DNA from: Streptomyces macrolidinus
GTDB lineage: Bacteria > Actinomycetota > Actinomycetes > Streptomycetales > Streptomycetaceae
Length of the DNA stretch: 64,000 nt
Direction: 5' to 3'
Assembly: GCF_023887685.1 (NCBI RefSeq)
Contig: NZ_JAMWMR010000018.1
Span: forward strand, 1 to 64,000
A model generated the notes under the pieces. That model made no database searches. It worked only from the letters and a program-made list of their open reading frames with translations, and was not told where the DNA came from. Of the stretch, positions 1,704-36,750 are shown piece after piece. Each line of letters starts with the position of its first letter. Position 1 is the stretch's first letter. The translations under genes were made by a program, and so were the position numbers.

Positions 1704-1892
1704 GTGCGCTCCCTCCGCGTCGGGGTCTTCCCTGTTCAGGGCCGTCCCCCGCGCGGGCGGAGCCGGGAGTGGAGGGCGAAGCCGCGTTCCTGGGAGAAGG
1801 CCGTTCCACCCCAGCGTAGATCCGGGTGGGTCACGTGTGGGGGACCTCCGCCGGTCCGCCATGAACCGCCACGGTGACATCGAGGCGGTGGA

Positions 1893-2972
1893 TCAGGACG
1901 TCAGCCAGGCCGTCAGGCGCTCCTCGCCCGCGAGGATCTTCGCCGTGTCCACGCGTTCGTCCCGCTTGTGCGCCAAGTGGGGGTTGCCCGGACCGTAGTT
2001 GACGGCCGGAACGCCGAGCGCGCTGAAGCGGGAGACGTCGGTCCAGCCGTACTTGGGCTGCGGGGTGCCGCCGACCGCCGCCACGAAGGCCGCCGCGGCC
2101 GGGTGCGTGAGACCGGGCAGCGCGCCGCCGCTGTGGTCGGTCACCACGAACTCCTCGACCCCGCAGTCCGCGAAGACCTCGTGGACATGGGCGATCGCCT
2201 CCTGCTCGCTCCGGTCCGGCGCGTAGCGGAAGTTGACCGTGACCACACACTCGTCGGGGATCACGTTCCCGGCGACGCCGCCCGAGATGCCGACCGCGTT
2301 CAGCCCCTCCCGGTACTCCAGGCCGTCGATGACCGGGTACCGGGGCTCGTAGGCGGCCAGGCGGGCCAGGATCGGGGCCGCCGCGTGGATCGCGTTCGCG
2401 CCCATCCAGCTCCGTGCCGAGTGGGACCGCTCGCCCTTGGTCTTCAACTGCATGCGCAGGGTGCCCTGGCAGCCGCCCTCGACCTGGCCGTCGGAGGGCT
2501 CGAGGAGCACCGCGAAGTCGCCCTCCAGCCAGTCGGGGTGGGCCTCGGCCACATGCTTCAGACCGTTGAGGTGTGCGGCGACCTCCTCGTTGTCGTAGAA
2601 GACGAACGTGAGGTCGCGGTTGGGCTCGGGGACCGTCGCCGCGATACGGAGCTGGACCGCGACGCCCGCCTTCATGTCGCAGGTGCCGCAGCCCCACAGC
2701 ACACCGTCCGCCTCCAGCCGCGAGGGGACGTTGTCCGCGATCGGGACCGTGTCGATATGGCCGGCCAGGATGACGCGCTCCGCCCGCCCGAGGTGCGTAC
2801 GGGCCACGACGTTGTTGCCGTACCGGTCCACCGTCAGATGCGGCAGCGCGCGCAGCGCGGTCTCGATCGCGTCCGCGAGGGGCTTCTCGTTCCCGCTCTC
2901 GGAGGGGAAGTCGACGAGCCGGGCGGTGAGCCGCGCGGCGTCCAGCGTGAGGTCAAGGGGGGTGTCGGCCAT
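1893..2972 (-). CDS. dapE: Succinyl-diaminopimelate desuccinylase DapE
   Basis: This 359-residue M20 metallopeptidase-family enzyme hydrolyses N-succinyl-LL-diaminopimelate in the lysine/meso-DAP pathway, in the cytoplasm. Visible motifs are AGHIDTVP (metal-binding His and Asp), [11 protein letters not shown] (bridging Asp) and YDNEEV (catalytic Glu). A C-terminal [15 protein letters not shown] segment carries the last metal ligand. ATG at 2972 is chosen over the upstream frame limit at 3032 because [11 protein letters not shown] is the usual actinobacterial N-terminus. It shares the pathway with dapC at 4.9 kb but is not in one operon with it. It is divergent from the membrane protein at 3059, leaving an 86-nt shared promoter space. 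Confidence 0.95.
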
Positions 2973-15960: not shown

Positions 15961-16566
15961 TCACCTCTGCCTCTCGTCCGTGTAGCGCGGCAGACCGTCG
16001 GTCGAGATCGTCCAGTCGGCGATCGTGACGTCCTCGCCGTAGACGAAGTCCTTGCGGGTGGCGTAGCGGGGACCATCGGGGGTCGGATGGATGTCGGAGA
16101 GCACGGCGCCGGTGCCGGTGCGGGGGTCGAAGATCGCGTAGGCGGGGATGCCCATGAGGGGATAGTCCCGGACCTTGCCCACCCAGTCGTTGTCCGGGTT
16201 GGAGCGGGAGACGATCTCGACGGCGGCGATGAGCGAGCGGGGATCGAAGGACCCGTCACCTTCCATTTCCGCCTCGGCGATCACCATCACGTCGGGGTGC
16301 CGCATGATGCTCTCGGGCTCGTCCTCCACGTCAGGCTCTCCCGTGTGGGCGACGATCTCCTCCGGCATGACCCGCTCCAGGCGCTTCCGGAGACGCAGCG
16401 CGGTCAGCTCGTGCTGATTCACGGGCGCCATCATGTCGTGGACGAGTCCTTCTTTGGTGATCTCGAACTTGCCGGGAAGGGTGTCCTCCACGGACCGAAC
16501 GAAGTCCCGCATGACTCGATAGGCGTGGGAGGGGCCCGGCCGCGCGCTGTCCGGTGCGATGGTCAT
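15961..16566 (-). CDS. Uma2-family (DUF820) endonuclease-fold protein
   Basis: This 201-residue protein has the Uma2 version of the PD-(D/E)XK fold. HPDVMVI carries the first acidic residue, and AAVEIVSRSN ... VGKVRDYPLMGIPAYAIFDP carries the Glu, the Lys and the closing strand. Family members occur in large numbers in Streptomyces and cyanobacteria, with no settled role; a nuclease activity is inferred from the fold. ATG at 16566 is preceded by GGAG-like sequence. It marks the left side of a 4-kb strip of accessory regulatory genes. Confidence 0.85.
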   Translation of the reverse strand: MTIAPDSARPGPSHAYRVMRDFVRSVEDTLPGKFEITKEGLVHDMMAPVNQHELTALRLRKRLERVMPEEIVAHTGEPDVEDEPESIMRHPDVMVIAEAEMEGDGSFDPRSLIAAVEIVSRSNPDNDWVGKVRDYPLMGIPAYAIFDPRTGTGAVLSDIHPTPDGPRYATRKDFVYGEDVTIADWTISTDGLPRYTDERQR

Positions 16567-17721: not shown

Positions 17722-18195
17722 TCAGTCGCTGACGCGACCGGAGCACGCGGGGGCGGGATCCGGTGTCCGAAGGTCCAGTTCAGCCCAGACGGTCTTGCGT
17801 GGGAACCGGCCCTCTTCGACGTGCCAGCGATCCGCGAGCGCATCCACGAGCAGCAGGCCGCGGCCGGACTCGGCGAGCACGTCGGACACTTGGAGCTCGG
17901 GCAGGCGGTCACCGCGCGTGTCGGTGACCTCGATGCGCAGCGTGCGACCGACCACGTAGAGCGTGAGACGGAAGCTGCGACCGGGCAGACGGCCGTGGGT
18001 GGCCGCGTTGGCCGCCAGCTCGGCCACGATGTGCGTCGCGGGCTCCGCCGGGATCCCCCAGTTCCGGAGCTGATCGGCCGCGAGCAGCCGGGCCAGGCGG
18101 GCACCGCGCGGGGTGGAGGACAGCAGAGCGGTGAAGTCGGGTACGGCGTCGTGGTGTTGGGCCCACGCCCGCCCCTCTGCGGATTTCTGATTCAC
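17722..18195 (-). CDS. RsbW-like ATP-binding regulatory protein
   Basis: This 157-residue HATPase_c (GHKL) protein has N-box ELAANAATHGR (the Asn that binds Mg-ATP) and G-box VTDTRGDRLP. A second glycine region, SGRGLLLVDALADRW, comes before the C-terminal strand KTVWAEL. It lacks a kinase phosphoacceptor domain, like anti-sigma factors of the RsbW/SpoIIAB group and the AbaA ORF-B type ATPases of Streptomyces. It is divergent from the Xre/DUF5753 regulator 155 nt away, an arrangement repeated at 35 kb in this window. ATG at 18195. Confidence 0.85.
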   Translation of the reverse strand: MNQKSAEGRAWAQHHDAVPDFTALLSSTPRGARLARLLAADQLRNWGIPAEPATHIVAELAANAATHGRLPGRSFRLTLYVVGRTLRIEVTDTRGDRLPELQVSDVLAESGRGLLLVDALADRWHVEEGRFPRKTVWAELDLRTPDPAPACSGRVSD

Positions 18196-18257
18196 GTCAC
18201 TCAGAGTGGCCGGTGACGCTTACCGTGGTGAGTGACCAGGCCGTTGCGTACGGTGAC

Positions 18258-18294
18258 TGTCCGCCTGTTGTCCGGTGCTGTCCGGGCCTGTCGA
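18258..18294 (+). repeat. Helically phased TGTCCG direct repeats
   Basis: TGTCCG occurs at 18258, 18269 and 18279 and TGTCGA at 18289, giving spacings of 11, 10 and 10 nt, on one face of the helix. The array lies in the intergenic region shared by the ATPase and the Xre regulator, 57 nt before the regulator start. It is probably a binding array for the regulator or another protein. Confidence 0.55.
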
Positions 18295-18350
18295 CGACGG
18301 ACGTACGGGTGCGGGCGTTAGGCACGGCAGTACGACGGAAGGGCACGCTG

Positions 18351-19226
18351 ATGACTGTCGACGCAGATGCGGCACGACTCAAGGACGAGACGGACGAGCC
18401 GGGTTGGGAGGTGGATCCGGACGACGAGTGGGGCCTCGCGGTCATCGCCACCGTCGGGCGCCAGTTGAAGCTGCGGCGCGAGGCGGTGGGGATGAAGGCT
18501 GGCGAGTTCGGCAAGGCCATCGGCTACGGCGAGGACATGGTCTACAAGATCGAGGGCGGCAAGCGGATTCCCCGGCCCGAGTATCTGGACAAGTCGGACG
18601 AGGCCCTGGGCGCGAACGGGCTGATCTCGGCAATGAAGGAGGACGTGGCCAAGGTCCGGTATCCGAAGAACGTGCGAGACCTGGCGAAGATGGAAGCCAG
18701 GGCGGTCGAGCTCCAGCTCTACGATCCGTTGAACGTGCATGGCTTGTTGCAGACGCCGGAGTACGCACGGTCGTTGCTGCTGATGCGGCGGCCTGCCTAC
18801 TCCGAGGACGAGGTGGAGCGGTTCATCGCCGCGCGCATGGCTCGCAAGGCCGTCTTCGAGCGATCCCCGGCGCCTGAACTCAGTTTCGTCCTGGAGGAGT
18901 GGACACTTCGACGCCCGCTGGGAGGGAGGGACGCGCTGCGCCAACAGCTTGAACATCTGCTTGAGACAGGGCAGTTGCGGAACGTGGAACTCCAGGTGAT
19001 GCCGATGGACCGCGAAGAGCATGCCTGCGTGGACGCCGGGATCGAGCTACTGAAGTTCAACGACGGCTCGACAGTGGGCCGTTCGCAGGTAGTGGCCAAC
19101 GGTCGACCGGTCTCGGAAGCGAGGCAGCTCCGTATCCTCGAACTGAGGTATGGCATCATCCGAGCACAGGCGCTCACGCCGCGTGAGTCGACAGCCCTTA
19201 TCGAGCGACTGCTGGGGGACACATGA
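18351..19226 (+). CDS. Xre-family regulator with DUF5753 domain (Scr1/WhiJ type)
   Basis: This 291-residue protein has an N-terminal Xre helix-turn-helix at about residues 30-90 (GRQLKLRREAVGMKAGEFGKAIGYGEDMVYKIEGGKR). A DUF5753 domain of about 180 residues follows: LQLYDPLNVHGLLQTPEYAR, FVLEEWTLRR, QVMPMDREEHA. DUF5753 is the sensory or partner-binding half of WhiJ-type regulators. The family is paired with a small DUF397 protein, sometimes described as antitoxin/toxin-like. ATG at 18351 is preceded by GGAAGG; the upstream frame to 18213 runs through the operator repeats and is not used. The stop overlaps the DUF397 start by 4 nt. Confidence 0.9.
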   Translation: MTVDADAARLKDETDEPGWEVDPDDEWGLAVIATVGRQLKLRREAVGMKAGEFGKAIGYGEDMVYKIEGGKRIPRPEYLDKSDEALGANGLISAMKEDVAKVRYPKNVRDLAKMEARAVELQLYDPLNVHGLLQTPEYARSLLLMRRPAYSEDEVERFIAARMARKAVFERSPAPELSFVLEEWTLRRPLGGRDALRQQLEHLLETGQLRNVELQVMPMDREEHACVDAGIELLKFNDGSTVGRSQVVANGRPVSEARQLRILELRYGIIRAQALTPRESTALIERLLGDT

Positions 19227-19435
19227 TCCGCAACACCGCGCCCGAGGTTGCCTCCGAGCCAGCCTGGTTCAAGAGCAGCTACAGCAGTGGCAGCGAGGGC
19301 GACTCCTGCGTCGAGATCGCCACAGTCCCCGGCACCGTCCACGTCCGTGACTCCAAGGACGTACAGGGCCCCCAGCTTGCCCTGTCCGCCACGGCATGGG
19401 GCGACTTCCTCACGTACGCCCAGACCGCGAAGTGA
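19223..19435 (+). CDS. DUF397 protein, first copy
   Basis: This 70-residue small protein has the DUF397 pattern: WFKSSYSSGSEGDSCVEIA, then VHVRDSKD, then a hydrophobic block ending in WGDFLTYA. DUF397 proteins accompany Xre/DUF5753 regulators in Streptomyces; in published cases they bind or modulate the regulator and affect development or antibiotic production. ATG at 19223 overlaps the regulator stop (ATGA), so expression is coupled. It is closely similar to the copy at 19508. Confidence 0.9.
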   Translation: MIRNTAPEVASEPAWFKSSYSSGSEGDSCVEIATVPGTVHVRDSKDVQGPQLALSATAWGDFLTYAQTAK

Positions 19436-19444
19436 CCGTAGAGG

Positions 19445-19511
19445 CGACGCCCAGGCTCTCACGCCGAGGGAGTCGACTGCCTTCATCGAGCAACTGCTGG
19501 GAGAGACATGA
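19445..19511 (+). pseudogene. Fragment of the Xre/DUF5753 regulator 3' end
   Basis: This short in-frame stretch encodes QALTPRESTAFIEQLLGET, nearly the same as the last residues of the regulator at 18351. It ends with the same ATGA overlap into a DUF397 gene. No start or upstream domain exists, so it is a duplication scar. It may still supply the ribosome site for the second DUF397 gene (GGGAGAG). Confidence 0.8.
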
Positions 19512-19717
19512 TCCGCAACGCCCCGACCGGGGACACCCCCGAACTGGCCTGGTTCAAGAGCAGTTACAGCAGCAGCAGCGAAGGTGACTCCTGCGTCGAG
19601 ATCGCCACGATGCCCGGCACGGTACACGTCCGCGACTCCAAGAACGTCGAAGGCCCCCGGCTCATGCTGACGTCAGAAGCCTGGACCCACTTCGTGTCGT
19701 ACGCGTCCGAGGTCTGA
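19508..19717 (+). CDS. DUF397 protein, second copy
   Basis: This 69-residue DUF397 protein is the product of a tandem duplication with the gene at 19223. They share WFKSSYSS, EGDSCVEIAT, PGTVHVRDSK and a C-terminal AW-x-x-F-x-x-YA block. The last third has diverged most (LMLTSEAWTHFVSYASEV), the part likely to contact a partner. ATG at 19508 overlaps the regulator fragment's stop exactly as in the parent copy. It is still open and intact. Confidence 0.9.
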   Translation: MIRNAPTGDTPELAWFKSSYSSSSEGDSCVEIATMPGTVHVRDSKNVEGPRLMLTSEAWTHFVSYASEV

Positions 19718-19730
19718 CCCGACCGGCCGG

Positions 19731-19895
19731 TTACTCGGCCTCGGCCTCCGGTACGTCCACCTCGCCGCCCAGGGAACAGGCGATGGCCGTGAACCCGTCC
19801 AGGGCGGACTGGAGGTCACGGACGATCCCCTCGGCCATCACCTCGGGCGGCATGCGCGGCGTCATTGCGGCCCCCGCGTAGCTTGTCGAAGGCAT
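19731..19895 (-). CDS. Small hypothetical protein
   Basis: This possible 54-residue protein, MPSTSYAGAAMTPRMPPEVM followed by an amphipathic helix (RDLQSALDGFTAIACSLGG) and an acidic tail, converges on the second DUF397 gene with 13 nt between the stops. GGAG lies 6 nt before ATG at 19895; an internal ATG at 19865 would give 44 residues. I do not recognise a family. The composition is protein-like but the length makes it uncertain. Confidence 0.4.
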   Translation of the reverse strand: MPSTSYAGAAMTPRMPPEVMAEGIVRDLQSALDGFTAIACSLGGEVDVPEAEAE

Positions 19896-19979
19896 CGCGA
19901 CTCCAGCCGACGAGCACACGGGCCGGAGGCAACGCGGCGAACTCCGGTGCCACGAAGGGGCGGAAGCAGGCGCGCCAGG

Positions 19980-20012
19980 GCGGGCTTCGGTCACTCGGTG
20001 ACCGAAGCCCGC
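19980..20012 (-). terminator. Hairpin terminator after the 64-residue membrane protein
   Basis: A perfect 15-bp stem with a TCG loop begins 12 nt after the minus-strand stop codon at 20024. Confidence 0.75.
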
Positions 20013-20023
20013 TGGCAGGCCGC

Positions 20024-20218
20024 TCAGAACTTGATGCTTCCGATCATCCCCGCGAGGTTCGTCGTGAGCTGAGTGATCGTCGGCGCGATCGTCGACGAGG
20101 AGAGATAGAAGCCGAGCAACATGCACACGACCGCGTGCCCGGCCTTCAGCCCTGACTTCTTGACCAGAAGGAAGACGACGATCGCCAGCAGCACCACCGC
20201 CGAAATCGAGAGTGCCAC
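20024..20218 (-). CDS. Conserved small two-helix membrane protein
   Basis: This 64-residue protein begins with a transmembrane helix (SISAVVLLAIVVFLLV), then KKSGLKAGHA, a second helix (VVCMLLGFYLSSSTIAP), and a short amphipathic end with TTNLAGMIGSIKF. Very similar short proteins are widespread in Streptomyces with no assigned function. It is preceded by a near-perfect GGAGGTGA before GTG at 20218 and followed by a strong terminator, so it is a real monocistronic gene. It is divergent from the S9 peptidase. Confidence 0.75.
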   Translation of the reverse strand: MALSISAVVLLAIVVFLLVKKSGLKAGHAVVCMLLGFYLSSSTIAPTITQLTTNLAGMIGSIKF

Positions 20219-20403
20219 GGCGGCTCACCTCCAATGATCCACAGGGACGCGGGGGTTCGGACTACGGGGTAACAAATCCATGAGGACATACCCACGTTGG
20301 GAAATCCACACAGATGCCAGCGGGTTTCTTACCCACCGTGCGCCAGTGATCATAACTATCCGTACGTGCGCATCGATCGGCGCACAGCCGCACAAGGGGG
20401 CGC

Positions 20404-20427
20404 ATGGCCAATATGGTCAGGGCATGA
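20404..20427 (+). promoter_or_regulatory. Seven-codon upstream ORF overlapping the S9 peptidase start
   Basis: ATG at 20404 follows AAGGGGG at good spacing and encodes MANMVRA. Its TGA overlaps the peptidase ATG as ATGA. The peptidase start itself has a poorer ribosome site, so translation may be coupled through this leader. Confidence 0.35.
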
Positions 20428-22592
20428 CGAGCGAACCCGATTCCTTCCCTCGACGGCACGCGCGGACCCAGCGATTCACGCTCGGCGCCCCGCGTTCGTT
20501 CACCGTCTCGCCCGATGGTTCTCGTGTCGTGTTCCTGCGCTCCACGTCCGGCACGGACCGCGCTCACCACCTCTGGGTCCTCGACACCGCGGAGGGTGTG
20601 GAGCGTCCCGCGGCCGACCCCGGTGCTCTGCTGAAGGGCACCACCGAGCAGGTGCCGCCCGAGGAGCTGGCCCGCCGCGAGCGCAGCCGTGAGGGGGGTG
20701 CCGGCATCGTCGGCTACGCCACCGACGCAGCCGTGGAGTTGGCCTCTTTTGCCTTGTCAGGGCGGTTGTTCATTGCCGAGCTGCGCGCGGGCACGGCGCG
20801 CGAACTGCCCGCCGCGGGCCCGGTGATCGACCCGCGTCCGGCCCCCGACGGACGGCACATCGCGTACGTCGCGCGGGGCGCGCTGCGCGTGATCGGCGCC
20901 GAGGGCGAGGGCGACCGGGCCCTTGCCGAACCGGAGTCGGAGTCCGTCTCCTACGGCCTCGCCGAGTTCATCGCGGCCGAGGAGATGGAGCGTTCGCGGG
21001 GCTTCTGGTGGTCGCCGGAGTCCGACCGGATGCTGGTCGCGCGCGTGGACGACACGCCGGTACAGCGGTGGTGGATCTCCGATCCCGCGCATCCGGAACA
21101 GGCGCCGCGACAGGTCGCGTACCCGGCGGCCGGAACCGACAACGCGGACGTACGGCTGTTCGTCCTGGGCCTCGACGGGTCGCGCACGGAGGTCGTCTGG
21201 GACCGGGTCGGCTACCCGTATCTGGCGCGAGTGCACTGGTCAGCGGCGGGTGCGCCGCTGATTCTGGTCCAGTCGCGCGACCAGCGCGGCCAGCTCTTCC
21301 TGGCGGTGGACCCGGACACGGGCGCCACCAGGATGGTGCACGCCGACGAAGATCCAGTTTGGCTTGAACTTTTCCCTGGTATTCCCTGCTGGACCCCCTC
21401 AGGACAGCTCGTGCGGATCGCCGACGAGGGTGGCGCGCGCGTGCTGACGGTGGGCGAACGCCCTTTGACGGGGCCGCAGTTGCACGTACGCGCGGTACTC
21501 GATGCGTCGGACGACGATGTACTGGTCTCGGCGTCGGCCGGCGAGGCGGCCACTTCCCCGGAGATCGGCGAGGTCCACGTCTACCGCGTCAATGAACTCG
21601 GCGTGGAGCGCGTCTCCCAGGAACCCGGCGTGCACGCGGCGGTGCGAGCCGGGGGCGTGATCGTACTCGTCTCCTCGGTCCCTGGCCAACCGGGCACCCG
21701 GGCGCGGGTGTTGAGCGACGGCAAGCGCAACGAGGCGGGTGGTGCCCGGAGCGGCCCGACCGGTGGCCCCGCGAAGACCCTGACCGTGGCGTCATATGCC
21801 GAACACCCGGGTTTGTCCCCGCGCATGACGCTCACTCAGGGGGGCGCACGCCGAATCCCATGCGCCGTGCTTATGCCTACGGACTACTCCGGTGACACCT
21901 CCCTGCCCGTCCTGATGGACCCCTATGGCGGCCCGCACGGTCAGCGCGTGCTGGCCGCGCACAACCCGCATCTGACCTCGCAGTGGTTCGCCGACCAGGG
22001 CTTCGCGGTGATCGTCGCGGACGGCCGGGGCACCCCGGGCCGCTCCCCCGCCTGGGAGAAGGAGATCAGGGACGAGGTGGCGGCGGTCGCGCTCCAGGAC
22101 CAGGTCGACGCGCTGCACGCCCTCGCCGAGGACTTCCCGCTCGACCTGGACCGGGTCGCGATCCGCGGCTGGTCCTTCGGCGGCTATCTCGCGGCGCTCG
22201 CGGTGCTGCGCCGCCCGGACGTCTTCCACGCGGGCGTGGTCGGCGCGCCGGTGACCGACCTGCGGCTCTATGACACCTTCTACCAGGAGCGCTACCTCGG
22301 GCACCCCGCGGAGCAGCCGGAGGTCTACCGCCGCAACTCGGTGATCGACGACGCGGGCCTGGTCGGCGCCGCGGACCCGGCGCGGCCGATGATGGTCATC
22401 CATGGCCTGGCGGACGACAACGTGGTGATGGCCCACTCCCTGCGCCTGTCCTCGGCGCTGCTGGCCGCGGGCCGCCCGCACGAGGTGCTGCCGCTGTCCG
22501 GGGTGACGCACATGACCCCGCAGGAGACTGTCGCCGAGAACCTGCTCCTGCTCCAGCTCGACTTCCTCAAGCGCGCCCTGAAGCTCGACTGA
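20424..22592 (+). CDS. S9 family prolyl (dipeptidyl) peptidase, DPP IV-like
   Basis: This 722-residue serine peptidase has an N-terminal beta-propeller of the DPPIV_N type (about residues 15-470, with SVSYGLAEFIAAEEM and GFWWSPES as in DPP IV). A C-terminal alpha/beta hydrolase follows. Catalytic residues by family are Ser584 in GWSFGGY, Asp664 in HGLADDN and His696 in GVTHM; the MDPYGGPHGQRV block is upstream. No signal peptide is visible, so it is probably cytoplasmic and trims Xaa-Pro from peptides. It converges on a peptide importer operon, so a role in using imported peptides is plausible but inferred. ATG at 20424 fits the family. Confidence 0.92.
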   Translation: MTSEPDSFPRRHARTQRFTLGAPRSFTVSPDGSRVVFLRSTSGTDRAHHLWVLDTAEGVERPAADPGALLKGTTEQVPPEELARRERSREGGAGIVGYATDAAVELASFALSGRLFIAELRAGTARELPAAGPVIDPRPAPDGRHIAYVARGALRVIGAEGEGDRALAEPESESVSYGLAEFIAAEEMERSRGFWWSPESDRMLVARVDDTPVQRWWISDPAHPEQAPRQVAYPAAGTDNADVRLFVLGLDGSRTEVVWDRVGYPYLARVHWSAAGAPLILVQSRDQRGQLFLAVDPDTGATRMVHADEDPVWLELFPGIPCWTPSGQLVRIADEGGARVLTVGERPLTGPQLHVRAVLDASDDDVLVSASAGEAATSPEIGEVHVYRVNELGVERVSQEPGVHAAVRAGGVIVLVSSVPGQPGTRARVLSDGKRNEAGGARSGPTGGPAKTLTVASYAEHPGLSPRMTLTQGGARRIPCAVLMPTDYSGDTSLPVLMDPYGGPHGQRVLAAHNPHLTSQWFADQGFAVIVADGRGTPGRSPAWEKEIRDEVAAVALQDQVDALHALAEDFPLDLDRVAIRGWSFGGYLAALAVLRRPDVFHAGVVGAPVTDLRLYDTFYQERYLGHPAEQPEVYRRNSVIDDAGLVGAADPARPMMVIHGLADDNVVMAHSLRLSSALLAAGRPHEVLPLSGVTHMTPQETVAENLLLLQLDFLKRALKLD

Positions 22593-36532: not shown

Positions 36533-36750
36533 GACACCCCATGCGCACCCCCGACAACTGGCGGAAGTCGTCCTACTCCGGTCCCGGCGACGGAAACTCG
36601 TGCGTCGAGATCGCAACCACTCGCGCCCTCGTAGCCATCCGCGACTCCAAGGACCCAGCCCAAGGCGCCCTCGCCTTTCCGCCCGCGGGCTTCACCCTCT
36701 TCATCGAGTCGCTGAAGAACGCGCCGCATCTGGTGTCCAAGTTCGACTGA
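36529..36750 (+). CDS. DUF397 protein
   Basis: This 73-residue protein has NWRKSSYSGPGDGNSCVEIA, AIRDSKDP and a C-terminal FIESLKN, the DUF397 pattern. GTG at 36529 overlaps the regulator's TGA (GTGA), and an in-frame ATG at 36541 could be used instead. It forms the usual pair with the Xre/DUF5753 protein upstream. It is clearly diverged from the two copies at 19 kb. Confidence 0.9.
   Translation: MRHPMRTPDNWRKSSYSGPGDGNSCVEIATTRALVAIRDSKDPAQGALAFPPAGFTLFIESLKNAPHLVSKFD

Follow-up and report, generated by a model that had tools for sequence, protein, structure and literature searches.

The regulator operon between positions 18351 and 19717 of the window (the whole 64,000-nt stretch of Streptomyces macrolidinus DNA that was analysed) is best read, with a probability of about 0.7, as a mosaic WhiJ/BldB-type operon. 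Sequence comparisons suggest that a divergent allele supplied a new 3' half to the resident regulator gene, introduced a first DUF397 gene (DUF397-1) along with it, and left the end of the resident regulator gene and the resident DUF397-2 downstream. We call this leftover end the scrap. The locus, which lies in a 137-contig draft assembly, is a member of the WhiJ/BldB-type family by every feature testable in sequence, and is composed as follows.

17722 to 18195, minus strand: AbaA-like, anti-sigma-factor-like HATPase_c_2 gene (PF13581, E = 9.8e-11, 42.2 bits, cut-off 27.4), divergent and upstream of the regulator.
18351 to 19226, plus strand: WhiJ-like Xre/DUF5753 regulator of 291 aa (HTH_31, E = 5.4e-10, 39.9 bits, cut-off 27; DUF5753, E = 3.4e-45, 154.3 bits, cut-off 23.4).
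18790 to 19448, plus strand: putative divergent-allele segment (C-terminal half and tail of the regulator, DUF397-1 and spacer), proposed from dS, MaxChi and the rank of the S. colonosanans locus L259; its left edge is uncertain, from about 18790 to 19074.
19164 to 19226, plus strand: last 20 codons and stop codon of the present regulator, including the ATGA overlap and, for DUF397-1, a GGGGG Shine-Dalgarno site.
19223 to 19435, plus strand: DUF397-1, 70 aa (PF04149, E = 2.6e-20).
19449 to 19511, plus strand: the scrap, a 63-nt regulator gene 3' end (AQALTPRESTAFIEQLLGET and a stop codon), whose own frame has no start codon and is probably untranslated.
19499 to 19503, plus strand: GGGAG Shine-Dalgarno site of DUF397-2, within the L-G-E codons of the scrap, assigned from the sequence and the anti-Shine-Dalgarno duplex energy.
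19508 to 19717, plus strand: DUF397-2, 69 aa (PF04149, E = 4.7e-20; dN/dS 0.24), the resident-lineage copy.
19718 to 19850, no strand assigned: downstream flank, continuous in relatives with the scrap and DUF397-2 (matches up to 93%).
20024 to 20218, minus strand: convergent 64-aa DUF2304-like gene, the synteny anchor, matched at the DNA level in 119 of the 121 Streptomyces genomes.

The two DUF397 genes directly 3' of the regulator are both intact according to Pfam (72.8 and 72.0 bits, cut-off 24). The S. macrolidinus genome encodes 44 complete or near-complete DUF397 domains, and another such gene lies within the window at 36556–36717 on the plus strand (71 bits). A regulator–DUF397 operon was found beside the DUF2304-like gene in only 8 of about 50 relatives examined; as the DUF2304-like gene itself is near-universal, the operon is an accessory at a conserved site.

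A preliminary description of this DNA had proposed a tandem duplication of DUF397 that carried the 3' end of the regulator gene, and the repeat proved to be real: positions 19164–19419 align without gaps with 19449–19704, over 256 nt, at 79% identity and with an offset of 285. Repeat search and alignment place the two copies next to each other, on the same strand and in register. The edge is abrupt, with 2–7 identical positions per 20-nt bin up to 19160 and 15–18 per bin thereafter. Similarity is present upstream of the second ATG, in the form of 63 nt of regulator-tail sequence, and the local-alignment score of the regions upstream of the two DUF397 genes (58.5) exceeds those of all 200 shuffles. 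Two details of that description were adjusted: the second copy had been made to start at 19445, and the homology upstream of DUF397-2 starts at 19449; the duplicated tail, given as the last 20 codons, amounts to about 20 codons plus the stop. Read in the frame of the regulator, the scrap is RRGDAQALTPRESTAFIEQLLGET and the regulator end is RAQALTPRESTALIERLLGDT, each followed by a stop codon. The scrap ends in ATGA as the regulator gene does and leads into an intact DUF397-2, so that the overlap is kept in the second copy, as had been noted.

Two further observations were made on this stretch. The motif ACGCCCAG is present twice within 19414–19455, close to the end of DUF397-1 and at the left edge of the scrap, and could represent microhomology at the joint. 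On the plus strand, the frame of the regulator is open past its own stop from 19227 to 19511, through DUF397-1 and up to the stop of the scrap (285 = 3 × 95), and a readthrough product would be 95 aa longer, with a second tail at its end; this open frame is probably due to chance, because other arrays do not have the same phase.

Order and register are those expected if the 3' end of the present regulator gene and DUF397 had simply been duplicated in tandem where they stand, with ordinary divergence afterwards. The two DUF397 cores match at 87%, other loci show this architecture arising in place (the fresh scraps of G390 and G137, below), and a local DUF397 duplication is reported in S. pratensis (PMC4239341). 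We nevertheless consider such an origin unlikely. A recent event is expected to leave a near-identical tail and scrap, but these differ at 10 of 60 sites (dS 0.48); moreover, the scrap is closer to a regulator of another species than to its own, and synonymous divergence jumps within the regulator gene. Scrap differences alone had been considered as proof of constraint, an argument dropped for direct comparison with the syntenic locus.

That locus, L259, is the syntenic single-copy locus of S. colonosanans MUSC 93, and was chosen after the fact as the nearest one. The scrap is 95% identical to its regulator tail (3 of 60 sites differ), compared with 83% for the S. macrolidinus regulator, so the idea that the end of the present regulator had been copied in place was not borne out. 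L259 aligns with the scrap, DUF397-2 and flank (19449–19825) as one piece, at a background level of 89.7%, and with the window regulator and DUF397-1 at 82.2%. Synteny extends through the downstream genes (DUF2304-like and S9 peptidase, 19938–22564) at 87.9%, and to an upstream piece at 86.8%, the ATPase gene and the first codons of the regulator being absent there. In L259 itself (1070–1360), a deletion joins the equivalents of window positions 16349 and 18430; the ATPase gene is missing as a result, as is the beginning of the regulator gene, and the rest of the operon is present.

Synonymous divergence from L259 was 0.34 for the N part of the regulator, 0.78 for its C part, 0.10 for the scrap and 0.37 for DUF397-2, with a baseline of 0.31 for the S9 peptidase gene. 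Thus dS rises inside the regulator and drops back exactly at the scrap; as the jump in the C part is one of synonymous divergence, protein constraint is not its cause. A breakpoint in the regulator was also detected by a MaxChi permutation test (p = 0.0095). Ranked among the matches, L259 comes first for the scrap with DUF397-2 (89%, the next at 84%) and 44th of 167 for 18790–19160, and the best match to the C part of the regulator reaches 84%. The best matches among 393 Streptomyces genomes mostly span the scrap and DUF397-2, starting at 19449. By identity, the two units of the window do not come out as each other's closest relatives (ranks 30 and 79 of 131). DUF397-2 is 95% identical to L259 in the tail and 89% at the C-terminus, and the corresponding values against DUF397-1 are 83% and 56%.

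In its core, DUF397-1 is as close to L259 as DUF397-2 is, and its synonymous divergence from that locus (dS 0.39) approaches the background level; a foreign origin of this gene therefore rests on the tail, the C-terminus and dN. In conclusion, these comparisons well support an origin of the scrap in the resident lineage and a foreign origin of the C-terminal half of the regulator, and make a foreign origin of DUF397-1 probable. The four-copy paralogous locus on contig C105 of the same genome was considered as a donor and rejected: it has no scrap and, in the own-genome search, is only 73–80% alike.

Another possible history is a tandem duplication that predates the split from S. colonosanans and was reduced there to a single copy when tail and scrap recombined. 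Such a collapse could proceed through the 285-bp direct repeat, and single-copy loci predominate at the syntenic site. However, decay is expected in an untranslated scrap of that age, and only 3 differences in 60 sites to the S. colonosanans tail are present; the Poisson probability of at most 3 changes is 0.0008 with a dS baseline of 0.31 and 0.02 with a baseline of 0.19, on the assumption of no nucleotide-level constraint outside the Shine-Dalgarno site. We regard this history as quite improbable.

Phylogenetic trees agree with the mosaic reading to a degree that depends on sampling. The best trees, which are weak (231 columns), join the scrap and DUF397-2 with L259, and constraining units 1 and 2 of the window together costs 18–19 log-likelihood units. 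The AU p-value for the two window copies as sisters was 0.004 with 32 rows, 0.17 with 59 rows and 0.79 with 132 rows; in this last run the free search had failed, its tree being 57.8 log-likelihood units worse than that of the constrained search.

The two DUF397 proteins differ mainly in their last third, as had been noticed: there are 14 differences in 24 residues of the C-terminal third and 3 in 33 of the core, with a further 7 in 12 at the N-terminus. The suggestion that this reflects a change of partner did not prove specific, since the last third is the variable region of the family: divergence there is 55% in the window pair and 47% on average between species, and 28% of random pairs reach or exceed 55%. 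DUF397-2 is under purifying constraint relative to its S. colonosanans orthologue (dN/dS 0.24). Its structure model had a pLDDT of 76.5, and a Foldseek search of the PDB with this predicted fold returned no significant match (best E 3); no sequence relative of DUF397-1 was found in the PDB.

Why the scrap was kept was approached by a survey of adjacent DUF397 genes. A pattern search of 121 Streptomyces genomes in four spacing bins, with the loci met along the way, gave 47 distinct adjacent pairs; loci found by similarity raised this number to 58, and the 44 pairs whose genes lie 14 nt or more apart were used for the identity profile. The sample is biased by the codons in the search pattern and, for the added loci, towards relatives of the window regulator, and one array may supply several pairs. 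Some matches in the wider bins are not DUF397 (repeated GACTCGAAGAC... matches) and were lost at the profile step. Shuffles and pooled cross-pair profiles served as controls; a cross-pair control for each row is unusable as a p-value, because the tails of related regulators match each other's scraps.

In the 44 pairs, identity to the 3' end of the local regulator gene was 71–73% at positions -1 to -14 before the downstream DUF397 gene, 55% at -15 to -21, 46% at -22 to -35 and 43% at -36 to -63, compared with 42, 40, 38, 32 and 32% in the five successive bins of the cross-pair control. At least 60% identity over -1 to -21 was found in 28 of the 44 pairs, and in 15% of cross pairs. The window pair itself is 100% identical over -8 to -14 and 86% over -1 to -21. 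A Shine-Dalgarno-like site lies upstream of each DUF397 gene. The site of DUF397-2 forms an anti-Shine-Dalgarno duplex of -7.3 kcal/mol, and the stretch just upstream of it one of -1.2; in the survey pairs the kept stretch had a mean energy of -8.5 kcal/mol, against -3.5 just upstream (Wilcoxon p = 2e-8). Identity profile and pairing energy thus support the earlier proposal that the scrap preserves a translation signal, and scraps across the genus appear to be kept mainly for their ribosome-binding site. On the simplest reading, the end of the scrap would have to accompany a second expressed DUF397 gene, because the Shine-Dalgarno site of that gene sits in the last codons of the regulator.

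The scrap could hold more than a ribosome-binding site, namely part of a DUF397 promoter. For S. venezuelae, the promoter of bldB9 is described as located within the coding sequence of whiJ9 (PMC10294661), and some scraps are long (about 129 nt in G390). We find this very improbable, given that the kept part across arrays is the last 14 nt and that many scraps, of 14–35 nt, are too short for a promoter and leader. In addition, a promoter and terminator scan found nothing, with no sigma-70-type site, the single promoter type covered, at 18100–20100.

Translation of the scrap, or passage of terminating ribosomes through it to DUF397-2 so that its ATGA still couples the two genes, would agree with the intact ATGA and regulator frame in the window and with the frame open from 19227 to 19511. 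However, there is no ATG, GTG or TTG in the frame of the scrap past the DUF397-1 stop, other scraps contain in-frame stops (L045, G301), and in many pairs the distance from one copy to the next is not divisible by three, which makes such coupling extremely unlikely. Since its frame lacks a start codon, the scrap is probably untranslated, and coupling of translation at its ATGA has probably been lost.

Similar scraps were observed elsewhere in the same genome, where several other tandem DUF397 pairs carry, before the second copy, a piece of the 3' end of their own, different, regulator gene. The scrap of the C47 pair reads RLRGEL followed by a stop and is identical to the end of its regulator; at C50 the scrap and regulator end compare as LPPAESLALIRR against LPPTESLTLIQR; the piece at C1:421k has an in-frame TAG; and the C1:201k and C46 pairs also carry such a piece. 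The pair at C105:59k and the four-copy array at C105 are without a scrap, and their genes start beside the stop of the previous DUF397 gene. In that array (L039, C105:197500–200600), four tandem DUF397 genes (1664–2452) accompany one regulator, and their starts overlap the previous DUF397 stop.

In other genomes, scraps range from fresh to worn. That of G390 is fresh, spans about 43 codons and hardly differs from the regulator of its locus, and G137 has another fresh one; the scrap of G302 retains part of the regulator tail and that of G301 has an in-frame stop; G389 and G209 show Shine-Dalgarno-only remnants, with little beyond CGCTGGGAGAAACATG. The series from G390 to G389 and G209 would represent the order of events, as inferred from these sequences.

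Several loci depart from this pattern in other ways. In G013 the regulator tail has been deleted and the remaining frame continues into DUF397, and the AGRDM codons show that the same site is still present; this gene, at the syntenic site (L082, G013:C1:5666500–5670500, ORF 1833–2894, minus strand), encodes HTH_31, residues 1–142 of the 178 of DUF5753 and DUF397 in a single 353-aa frame, a natural fusion that hints at physical interaction of the two proteins. In L083 (G026:C1:498000–501500, ORF 1727–2227, minus strand), a 166-aa regulator has lost most of DUF5753 in frame, so that Pfam finds no such domain, and its HTH and RAQAFPPRESLAFIERLLGET tail are kept before DUF397. In S. echinoruber (L219, 3867–4373), two DUF397 genes have nearly identical 3' halves and different 5' halves, which is opposite to the window pattern and looks like the outcome of homogenisation through gene conversion. 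Finally, in the DUF397 proteins of L043, L050, L051, L069, L079, L101, L131 and L143, about 20 residues from the beginning of the domain are partly repeated (WxKSSYS motif two to three times).

According to the mosaic reading, recombination would have exchanged the 3' half of the resident regulator for that of a divergent allele together with the DUF397-1 of that allele, with a joint inside the last 21 codons of the resident regulator. The 63-nt end and the resident DUF397-2 would have remained downstream, whether this took a single step or followed an earlier tandem duplication, and the scrap would persist by virtue of the Shine-Dalgarno site held in the last regulator codons (L-G-E as CTG-GGA-GAG). 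The operon would be expressed as one transcript, in which DUF397-1 is started at the ATGA of the regulator and DUF397-2, as the third gene, independently at the site in the scrap, the second ATGA being a relic. Judging from published work on the family, each DUF397 protein may target the regulator or the other DUF397 protein, so that a single regulator would have two co-regulators; being of different ancestry, they could, speculatively, form mixed oligomers on it. A tentative generalisation, which we hold as possible rather than probable, is that the last 15–60 nt of WhiJ-type regulator genes, whose conserved C-terminal codons contain the ribosome-binding site of DUF397, form a portable start cassette, by which duplication and recombination stack DUF397 genes, including those of other lineages, behind one regulator.

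Streptomyces carry tens of Xre/DUF397 loci, which influence sporulation and antibiotic production, and the route by which they multiply and diversify is at issue. The scraps show one such route: when the start signal of a gene is located within the gene before it, duplication or transplantation has to include the end of that preceding gene, which marks the event. In the window this mark appears to record a replaced regulator, and so offers a case, open to testing, in which a regulator has two co-regulators that differ in ancestry. If the cassette reading is true, modules of regulators and co-regulators are reassorted in Streptomyces, and the regulators that were replaced can be dated from their scraps.

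In tandem duplications that carry flanking regulatory DNA, and in translational coupling of overlapping genes, the duplicated unit brings its own start signals. The present locus differs from such duplications in that the signal lies inside the coding end of another gene, and so resembles a gene fragment, and in that it appears to come from a different allele. The open-access papers searched yielded nothing relevant on duplications that carry the ribosome-binding site of an upstream gene, and no description of regulator scraps as start cassettes. Local duplication of DUF397 genes is already known, and the putative reuse of a scrap for translation start was not found in the papers searched.

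The DUF397–Xre gene pair, the same as in the window, was predicted to be a type II toxin–antitoxin system (PMC2701414); against this prediction, toxicity of Scr2 was not seen (PMC6262351). WhiJ-type regulators bind DNA and their DUF397 partners appear to relieve or tune them (PMC4255298, PMC10294661): WhiJ9 binds its own upstream region (PMC10294661), and modulation of WhiJ by SCO4542 has been inferred (PMC4255298). BldB hetero-oligomerizes with most of its paralogues (PMC4255298, PMC10294661). The closest described arrangement is S. pratensis Sfla_2921-2923, where one Hpb (Xre) regulator is accompanied by two DUF397 (bldB) genes as in the window, and where recombination or gene conversion among such loci was inferred (PMC4239341); the passages compared make no mention of a regulator scrap or translation signal. 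WhiJ/BldB-type loci, which often include an AbaA-like ATPase gene and to which Scr1/Scr2 belong, have the same three gene types as the locus in the window, where the ATPase gene is upstream and divergent, and the ATGA overlap of regulator and DUF397 is common to this locus and most single-copy relatives. The present locus is unlike the usual loci of this type in having two DUF397 genes for one regulator, the second of which would be started from a scrap of a regulator gene.
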